Source: Halorientalis sp. IM1011 (lineage in GTDB: Archaea > Halobacteriota > Halobacteria > Halobacteriales > Haloarculaceae). Taken from it: a stretch of 64,000 nucleotides of DNA. The DNA is taken from positions 1,364,001 through 1,428,000 of the forward strand of contig NZ_CP019067.1 of assembly GCF_001989615.1 (NCBI RefSeq), in the 5' to 3' direction. Below the pieces are notes generated by a model. That model was not told the origin of the DNA and did no database searches. It saw only the letters and a list, made by a program, of their open reading frames with translations. The position numbers and the translations under genes are program-made. Shown piece by piece: positions 8,189-29,663 of the stretch (position 1 is its first letter; every line of letters starts with the position of its first letter).

Positions 8189-8312
8189 CTGTACGCCCCA
8201 CATGCGAGCGCGATGATATAACACTTGACCTGCCTTCGAGTCTGTTGACCGGGCTCGGACCGCTTTCGAGCCCTCGGCTCAGCAGTGACACAGCCCCAGA
8301 AACGTGCCAGCA

Positions 8313-8325
8313 CCCCGATTTGAAC
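8313..8325. repeat. truncated copy of the tRNA-Phe 3' end
   Basis: CCCCGATTTGAAC is identical to 8470-8482 inside tRNA-Phe, and weaker similarity extends on both sides (TGCC before it, GGA after it). The copy lies 157 bases on the 3' side of the tRNA. It cannot be a functional tRNA because no D-arm or anticodon arm follows. The DNA between the copies includes a CTCGCTTCGCTCG core and repeated CGTTCCGG. Confidence 0.6.
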
Positions 8326-8462
8326 AGAGGAAGACGTTCCGGGCGTGCGGCTCGCTTCGCTCGCCGTTCCGGGGCTGTGACTTCCAGGCTCGAATCGATT
8401 CGGGAGCATTTTCACCGCTCACGACTCGGTCGCGGTGCTCCCTCGGTAGTTCGCGGGAAAAT

Positions 8463-8535
8463 GCCGCCTCCCCGATTTGAACGGGGGACAGCTCGATCTT
8501 CAGTCGAGTGCTCTCCCAGTCTGAGCTAAGGCGGC
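8463..8535 (-). tRNA. tRNA-Phe(GAA)
   Basis: On the minus strand the gene folds with a 7-bp acceptor stem GCCGCCT/AGGCGGC, D-arm GCTC..GAGC, anticodon stem CTCGA/TCGAG with loop CTGAAGA (anticodon GAA) and T-arm CCCCG TTCAAAT CGGGG. No intron is present and CCA is not encoded. It marks the left border of the Fic/glycosylase island. Confidence 0.95.
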
Positions 8536-11413: not shown

Positions 11414-11429
11414 TAATCCGGGAATTCGA

Positions 11430-11442
11430 GCGGATTCGAACC
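11430..11442. repeat. truncated copies of a tRNA T-arm beside tRNA-Val
   Basis: GCGGATTCGAACC is identical to 11543-11555 within tRNA-Val, 113 bases away on its 3' side. A second T-arm-like fragment (GGGTTCGAACCGCC) lies at 11479-11492. Between them and the tRNA there is a perfect 11-bp inverted repeat, CTTGCTGCTGC (11499-11509) with GCAGCAGCAAG (11523-11533). None can fold as a tRNA. Confidence 0.6.
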
Positions 11443-11533
11443 GGAGCCCGTTGCTCAATCCGTTGCGCGCGACTGGCAGGGTTCGAACCGCCCTCACGCT
11501 TGCTGCTGCTCACGGTTCGTTCGCAGCAGCAAG

Positions 11534-11607
11534 TGGGTTCGGGCGGATTCGAACCACCGACCTCGGCCTTGTAAAGGCCGCGTCATAACCGACTAGACCA
11601 CGAACCC
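11534..11607 (-). tRNA. tRNA-Val(TAC)
   Basis: On the minus strand it has acceptor stem GGGTTCG/CGAACCC, anticodon stem GGCCT/AGGCC with loop holding TAC, and T-arm GGTGG TTCGAAT CCGCC (wobble-containing). The discriminator base A is at 11534; CCA is not encoded. It closes the right side of the Fic/glycosylase island. Confidence 0.93.
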
Positions 11608-22817: not shown

Positions 22818-23057
22818 CTGAGGGCCAGTAGAGTCCTGACGGAGTCCCCGCGAGCGCCGAGGGACCAACGGTCCCTCGAGCAGCCGGCGCTTCGCGCCGG
22901 CGACGCAGCGAGCGGGGGCCCGTCAGAGCGCGGACGCGCTCTGACGGAGATTTGAACTCACTCACTTCGCTTCGCTCGTTCGCTGCTCAAATCTCCGCGC
23001 GTCCGTTTCATCGACGCGGACGGTTCGCTACGCTCACCGTTATTGCGTCGATGAAAA
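22818..23057. repeat. palindrome cluster with a truncated tRNA-Arg 3' copy
   Basis: Five perfect or near-perfect inverted repeats stand head to tail: 22859-22877 (8-bp arms), 22883-22901 (8), 22920-22947 (13-bp arms CCGTCAGAGCGCG, GA loop), 22946-22996 (10-bp arms GGAGATTTGA) and 23006-23056 (12-bp arms TTTCATCGACGC). A 19-bp copy of the tRNA-Arg 3' end (22941-22959, identical to 23062-23080) lies across the third and fourth. No coding frame is supported in the gap 22818-23057. Confidence 0.8.
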
Positions 23058-23130
23058 CGTCCTGACGGAGATTTGAACTCCGGTCCCTGGCTCCGCAAGC
23101 CAAGAGGATAGTCCACTACCCTATCAGGAC
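23058..23130 (-). tRNA. tRNA-Arg(GCG)
   Basis: Minus-strand gene with acceptor stem GTCCTGA/TCAGGAC, anticodon stem TTGGC/GCCAG with loop TTGCGGA (anticodon GCG), and T-arm CGGAG TTCAAAT CTCCG. Discriminator G is at 23058. No intron; CCA is not encoded. Confidence 0.94.
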
Positions 23131-29442: not shown

Positions 29443-29550
29443 GGGCCCTTAGCTTAGTCTGGTTAGAGCACCCGGCTCATACCAATCACTGACAGCGGTC
29501 AGGGATTGTGGGTAACCGGGCGGTCGGTGGTTCAAATCCGCCAGGGCCCA
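29443..29550 (+). tRNA. elongator tRNA-Met(CAT) with a 33-base BHB intron
   Basis: Acceptor stem GGGCCCT/AGGGCCC, anticodon stem CCCGG/CCGGG with spliced loop CTCATAA (anticodon CAT) and T-arm GGTGG TTCAAAT CCGCC. The intron is at 29482-29514. Elongator tRNA-Met introns are known in haloarchaea. No CCA is encoded; discriminator A is at 29550. Confidence 0.94.
29482..29514 (+). other. tRNA-Met intron (bulge-helix-bulge)
   Basis: CTCA of the anticodon loop pairs with TGGG (central helix), bulges are TAC and TAA, and the inner helix is CAATC/GATTG with a second inner stem CTGAC/GTCAG. Length is 33 bases. Confidence 0.88.
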
Positions 29551-29555
29551 TCGAC

Positions 29556-29663
29556 TTCGCTGCGAGCGCTCCGCGAGCAGCGAATCGTGTCCCTGGCGGT
29601 TTGAAGCAGACGACGAGCGAGTGGAACGAGCGAAGTCGGCGAGGTTCAAACCGCCAGGGCCCA
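29556..29663. repeat. palindromic block with a truncated copy of the tRNA-Met 3' end
   Basis: A copy of the tRNA 3' end, GGTTCAAACCGCCAGGGCCC (29643-29662, one base shorter than in the tRNA), lies 114 bases downstream. An inverted copy CCCTGGCGGTTTGAA (29591-29605) makes a perfect 15-bp inverted repeat with 29645-29659. A separate 8-bp hairpin TTCGCTGC/GCAGCGAA is at 29556-29584. The remaining bases to the aminopeptidase gene show no gene. Confidence 0.75.

Follow-up and report, generated by a model that had tools for sequence, protein, structure and literature searches.

Hairpin units that end in a copy of the local tRNA 3' end follow about half of the tRNA genes across Halobacteria

Why should the 3' end of a tRNA gene recur a short distance downstream of that gene, once in direct and once in inverted orientation? 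The question arises at a tRNA-Met gene in the window analysed here, a stretch of 64,000 nucleotides of the haloarchaeal chromosome of Halorientalis sp. IM1011 (C1:1364001-1428000). The gene (CAT anticodon, with an intron; 29443-29550, plus strand) was called by the Rfam tRNA model with 55.1 bits and missed by ARAGORN at default settings; 68 of its 68 compared bases are the same in one genome of the same genus. A preliminary description had reported an echo of its 3' end together with a 15-bp inverted copy, and both proved to lie where it had placed them. The echo, GGTTCAAACCGCCAGGGCCCA (29643-29663, plus strand), equals the last 22 nt of the tRNA, G52 to A73, minus one T. The 15-nt inverted arm (29591-29605, plus strand), which consists of the inverted T-loop, the T-stem and part of the acceptor strand, is perfectly complementary to 29645-29659. 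The hairpin previously assigned to 29556-29584 is also present but somewhat longer: denoted H1, it occupies 29552-29587 (plus strand), directly 3' of the gene, in both RNA and DNA folds. The inverted arm is the 5' arm of a second hairpin, H2, the inner part of which (29606-29642, plus strand) was recognised with R1, a covariance model of H2 that matches C1:1393595-1393655 (29595-29655 of the window) with 58.8 bits.

From the end of the tRNA-Met gene to the end of the echo, the unit measures 113 nt. Its RNA fold has an energy of -60.5 kcal/mol (z = -5.3), and its DNA fold has a z of -6.7. The tRNA-Met end has a single direct match with an inverted partner in the whole window, where 0.01 is expected by chance. 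A search with Rfam 15 at the gathering score returned nothing but tRNA in the window, leaving the units unmatched.

The window contains five tRNA genes, of which tRNA-Met, tRNA-Arg and tRNA-Val carry a unit, tRNA-Phe carries a degenerate one and tRNA-Asn carries none. The similar design noticed earlier at tRNA-Arg is thus borne out and extends to two further genes, all three on the minus strand. Behind tRNA-Arg (gcg; 23058-23130), the inverted arm GGAGATTTGAG lies at 22986-22996 and the direct echo at 22937-22956, with 2 mismatches in 20. The unit of tRNA-Val (tac; 11534-11607) spans 11421-11533, with the echo at 11421-11440 (4 mismatches in 20) and an R1 match at 11430-11492. The degenerate unit of tRNA-Phe (gaa; 8462-8535) spans 8305-8461, with the echo at 8305-8324 and an R1 match at 8314-8399.

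Among the 44 chromosomal tRNA genes of this genome, 26 have a 3' flank that is matched better by the last 24 nt of their own tRNA than by any other tRNA end, as against one of 44 when the same comparison is made with the 5' flanks. R1 matches 39 sites in the genome: 37 follow tRNA genes on the tRNA search list, one follows an additional tRNA-like gene absent from that list, and one has been pushed away by an integrated element and now lies about 12.8 kb downstream from the tRNA at C1:2906501, the end of which it copies. The preliminary description had held that the same sequence beside unrelated genes would make the match to tRNA-Met a coincidence; none of the 39 H2 matches is unconnected with a tRNA.

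It had also proposed a test of whether the copied fragment follows the local tRNA, including its variants, and this is what we observed. At tRNA positions that vary among species, the copy agrees with its own tRNA at 443, with that of the other species at 12 and with neither at 11 of 466 unit-positions, with a mild bias due to the collection of units with at most 4 mismatches. When H2 hairpins were found blind to the acceptor part, 100 of 159 matched the local tRNA at 13 of 13 positions from 61 to 73, and the whole set showed a mean of 1.5 mismatches to the local tRNA compared with 6.4 to others. Copies of foreign tRNA ends are essentially absent. Once the ARAGORN ends of some genes, one base too long, had been corrected, 197 T-loop windows came within two mismatches of a tRNA end, and five of them fitted another tRNA better; three of these five are an adjoining tRNA-Met gene or its echo, one is borderline and the fifth is an exact tRNA 3' end in locus L163.

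Counted without bias, 27 of 44, 22 of 40 and 20 of 36 tRNA genes in three genomes of the genus have at least one echo, and about half of the tRNA genes across Halobacteria carry units. Units may be tandem, with up to four in a row, for instance behind the tRNAs at 889007, 2363868 and 2817632. Matches to R1 are present in 114 of 116 genomes of Halobacteria, representing 45 of 46 genera, with species of Halorubrum, Natrinema, Haloarcula, Haloferax, Halobellus and Natrialba among the named carriers; in a phylum-wide sample (n = 148), R1 had no match in other Halobacteriota. Loci L075-L194 were picked by the type-A H2 pattern, so that the frequency of units among them is no estimate of the true one. 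The two genomes of Halobacteria without an R1 match, G014 and G054, also yielded far fewer first-look candidates than most, perhaps because of their base composition. A literature search covering papers available without subscription found no prior description of a haloarchaeal family of this kind.

Directly 3' of its tRNA gene, each unit starts with H1, continues with H2 and finishes with a direct copy of the 3' end of the local tRNA. In H2, the inverted T-loop with some of the T-stem comes first, followed by a short internal loop, a second stem and a variable tip, and finally the direct T-loop. Across 224 tRNA genes, tRNA and echo agree in a sharp block of 22 nt, from G52 to N73 (-2 to +19 around T54): identity is 0.93-1.00 within it (0.86 at the last base) and falls to 0.43 immediately to its left and 0.58 immediately to its right. 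Position 51 shows no tracking of the local tRNA, and in 107 of the 141 exact copies the identity extends over exactly 22 nt. Of 213 units, 171 have an inverted partner that forms at least 7 of 8 pairs, compared with 2.1% of shuffled units. Covariation in H2 is 0.388 versus 0.172 in shuffled alignments and at most 0.125 in slid controls for 28 hairpins of this genome, and 0.276 versus 0.120 and at most 0.055 for 87 distinct hairpins of named Halobacteria, a set biased towards structure by its alignment to the H2 model. As the 5' arm of a covarying hairpin, the inverted copy finds a better explanation than it would as an additional product of insertion.

Two deviations from this layout recur. 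Some echoes are split after TTCAAATT by an extra hairpin insert (CCGACCGAC...GTCGGTCGG and similar) and resume on its far side with the remaining acceptor copy (L008, L011, L022; G085:C1:235367 and 3372946); these are a second layer of hairpin insertion. In the variant echo TTCACAATCC (L320; G085:C1:1418848, 3024342 and 3072556; G109:C1:742946; L315 near C1:917887), the T-loop has one extra base and the acceptor part is exact, a pattern that hints at selection acting on the acceptor part, not at conversion of the entire echo.

Folding favours the sense strand over the antisense strand in 150 versus 23 cases for H2, 144 versus 29 for its inner part and 119 versus 49 for H1. With H1, the shuffled control leans the other way; with the inner part of H2, shuffled sequences account for -1.7 of the observed -2.6 kcal/mol, so that about two thirds reflect composition. 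A role of the sense strand, as RNA or as single-stranded DNA, is favoured. The scarcity of T-runs inside the units is about what composition predicts. A spliced element with a bulge-helix-bulge motif (BHB) cut by the splicing endonuclease was considered and rejected: circular-RNA sequencing in H. volcanii recovered solely known introns, rRNAs and one mRNA 5' UTR, and lists no units (PMC7714728).

Within a single genus, units turn over: different units follow tRNAs whose compared ends are identical. Four of 26 filled/empty pairs from same-genus genomes have clear junction homology, in that the sequence after the last echo of one genome matches the one directly after the tRNA in the other, and the flanks of the remaining pairs are too diverged to tell. 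The clearest cases are G085 C1:135797-135881 versus G109 C1:203471-203555, G085 C1:1411440-1411512 versus G109 C1:1803472-1803544, and the array at 889007 versus G109 C1:2137496-2137580. The tRNA at 2363868 shows that blocks are duplicated, since its array has identical units 1 and 3 and a common H1 in units 2 and 4. The distal echo is more degenerate than the proximal one in 29 arrays and less so in 8 (p = 2.5e-4). Homologous units diverge by 0.063 in the echo, 0.268 in H1 and 0.233 in the inner part of H2, and the tRNA end by 0.021. H1 and H2 change independently: the identity of H1 is 0.553 in pairs that share H2 and 0.546 in random pairs.

A close parallel exists in Escherichia coli. The RtT repeats (rttR, Rfam RF00391) at tyrT and tyrV are likewise tandem, lie directly behind the tRNA and carry the exact end of their own tRNA from the T-loop on; they copy 19 nt including CCA, with an inverted copy upstream as in the haloarchaeal units, and their number varies among strains. 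Behind tyrV of K-12 stand three repeats. All of them terminate in AATCCTTCCCCCACCACCA, which corresponds to the last 19 nt of tRNA-Tyr, and carry the inverted GGGGAAGGAT upstream of this direct copy. In this analysis, we found in another strain an RtT repeat behind proK whose final bases, AATCCTCTATCACCGACCA, are the 19 nt at the end of tRNA-Pro; the break falls at the same base. That proK repeat (L389, L392, L394) is annotated as 'processed from tyrT transcript' despite its tRNA-Pro end. A proK query including the unit was matched over at least 80% in 2694 of 5426 genomes, and the strains examined carry none or one; a tyrT-type query hits 1 to 10 places per matching genome. RtT also differs from the haloarchaeal units: it occurs at two E. 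coli tRNA loci, whereas they stand behind about half of the tRNA genes of Halobacteria; it breaks at A58 and they at G52/T54; and the sequences are unrelated. The RF00391 covariance model, which scores in E. coli, has no match in the IM1011 genome or on the unit. The haloarchaeal units share both the tRNA 3' end from the T-loop on and the pairing of inverted with direct copy, which spans 10 nt in E. coli; since RF00391 misses them, they represent the same design and not members of RtT.

An explanation has to accommodate the established anatomy, local-copy rule, class-wide spread, turnover and covariation of the units along with the parallel to RtT. The reading that we prefer, with a probability of about 0.5, is that of a tRNA-anchored, RtT-like repeat whose units are gained and lost by exchange in the T-loop and whose hairpins are kept by selection, probably as part of a trailer RNA. 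With the unit boundary in the T-loop, an exchange between gene and echo would rebuild a complete tRNA, and because any such exchange does so, arrays could gain or lose units harmlessly. Gain and loss would proceed by unequal exchange and repeat-mediated deletion, and rebuilding mostly next to the gene would leave old distal copies to decay. H2 would be kept as a hairpin of the sense strand, probably in the primary transcript of the tRNA, where its inverted arm would mask the echo and so prevent it from competing in folding with the real 3' half. A small RNA may be released from the trailer, by analogy with what is reported for RtT. One point against the T-loop exchange account is that the H2 type varies between orthologous tRNAs within a genus, for which local recombination alone is no explanation.

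In broader terms, what was a single oddity of E. coli becomes a general phenomenon shared by two domains of life. Its rule is exact: a break in the T-loop, a copied local 3' end and an inverted arm upstream. About half of the tRNA genes of an archaeal class are affected without any Rfam family covering the units. The finding bears on the transcription and processing of archaeal tRNA trailers, on tRNA 3' ends as hot spots of recombination, and on the misreading of such echoes as scars of virus integration. The partial tRNAs that the main text of the Haloferax gibbonsii LR2-5 paper places beside complete ones are very likely haloarchaeal units counted in annotation; that main text gives no structure, copy rule, tandem arrays or distribution (PMC7921747).

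A tentative alternative, to which we give appreciably less credence, is a non-autonomous mobile element in which H1 and H2 insert together at a cut staggered between the T-loop and the 3' end. The local 20-22 bp would be duplicated in the process, and each new insertion would be added beside the still intact gene, in the manner of CRISPR or casposon arrays (compared here by arrangement alone). The exact junctions of filled and empty sites, the absolute local rule, the occurrence of the same H2 types at different isotypes and the fresher state of gene-proximal copies all fit such an element. The independent change of H1 and H2 argues against it, as does the fact that every H2 match traces to a tRNA and that no integrase gene is linked to the units. 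Transposition of whole units between isotypes was rejected, as no whole unit common to different isotypes was found, and near-identical whole copies at unrelated places, as expected of a MITE or transposon, are lacking. The earlier suggestion that the unit copies its target's 3' end on insertion therefore holds in part: the local-copy rule fits it, but array growth by unequal recombination is visible, whole units were never seen moving between isotypes, and neither an insertion enzyme nor an insertion event was found. A related and rather doubtful proposal is a class-wide hairpin element that enters any intact tRNA gene at its T-loop and thereby copies exactly the local 3' end of 22 nt, with the folded H2 as the recognised structure, the tRNA body acting like an array leader, and RtT as an independent or very distant example of such a process.

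Improbable, in our judgement, is a purely functional trailer RNA or fail-safe terminator, with the echo maintained by selection on RNA and no exchange of DNA. Covariation, the sense-strand bias and the slow divergence of the echo are in its favour, as are the two RNA 3' ends downstream of tRNA-Pro in H. volcanii (PMC7237163). Yet about half of the tRNA genes have no unit, presence varies within a genus, an exact copy of the acceptor strand is needless for a terminator, and a T-run follows only 7 of 69 arrays.

More improbable still is that the echo is a tyrosine-integrase scar, the attR of a virus or plasmid since almost wholly deleted. Haloarchaeal elements with XerC/D-type integrases do integrate in tRNA 3' ends and likewise duplicate the 3' part of the target; a Haloquadratum provirus leaves a 22-nt tRNA duplication (PMC3119063), and the H. 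gibbonsii partial tRNAs could be read in the same way. Such elements differ from the units, however, in being kilobases long, encoding an integrase, lacking H1 and H2 and having other extents of identity. At the tRNA-Tyr locus, a 2.6-kb element with an integrase has an att copy of 29 nt that reaches into the 5' T-stem, and that of the element at the tRNA at C1:2906501 is about 14 nt, compared with 22 nt in the units. Both elements sit between the tRNA gene and its unit; because the units lie beyond them and have other copy extents, they are separate from these integrations and probably older. The attP of HF2 contains a much longer part of tRNA-Thr and no H2, the unit of about 113 bp encodes no gene (matches to PF00589 lie elsewhere), and a class-wide covarying hairpin is not expected of scars.

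Carriage of the units by viruses was rejected as well: one of 80 viral-contig loci has an H2 match, adjoining tRNA-Glu, and no halovirus in the phage collection gave a match. A chance origin of the tRNA-Met echo is ruled out by the expectation of 0.01, the excess of own-end matches in flanks and the local rule.

The attC sites of integrons are folded hairpins with paired boxes, an unpaired spacer, a variable tip and a boundary at G|TT. The haloarchaeal unit resembles them, by analogy, in hairpin layout and in the G|TT boundary; the crossover box GTTRRRY differs from the T-loop GTTCRAAT, which has C at position 4, and no gene cassettes as in integrons were seen at the units.

Three further observations concern the surroundings of tRNA genes. 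About two dozen tRNA matches, many of them low-scoring, lie on one strand within 4 kb at C1:2240734-2244715 (L009), a pattern reminiscent of the tRNA arrays carried by viruses or integrated elements. The same tRNA with the same flanks (at least 500 bp) occurs near both contig ends, at C1:10907-10980 and 3372637-3372710, reflecting either a real duplication or redundant assembly ends. In locus L051 (G098), a CRISPR-like repeat, GTTTCAGACGAACCCTTGTGGGGTTGAAGC, begins a few hundred bases 3' of a unit-less tRNA-Met.
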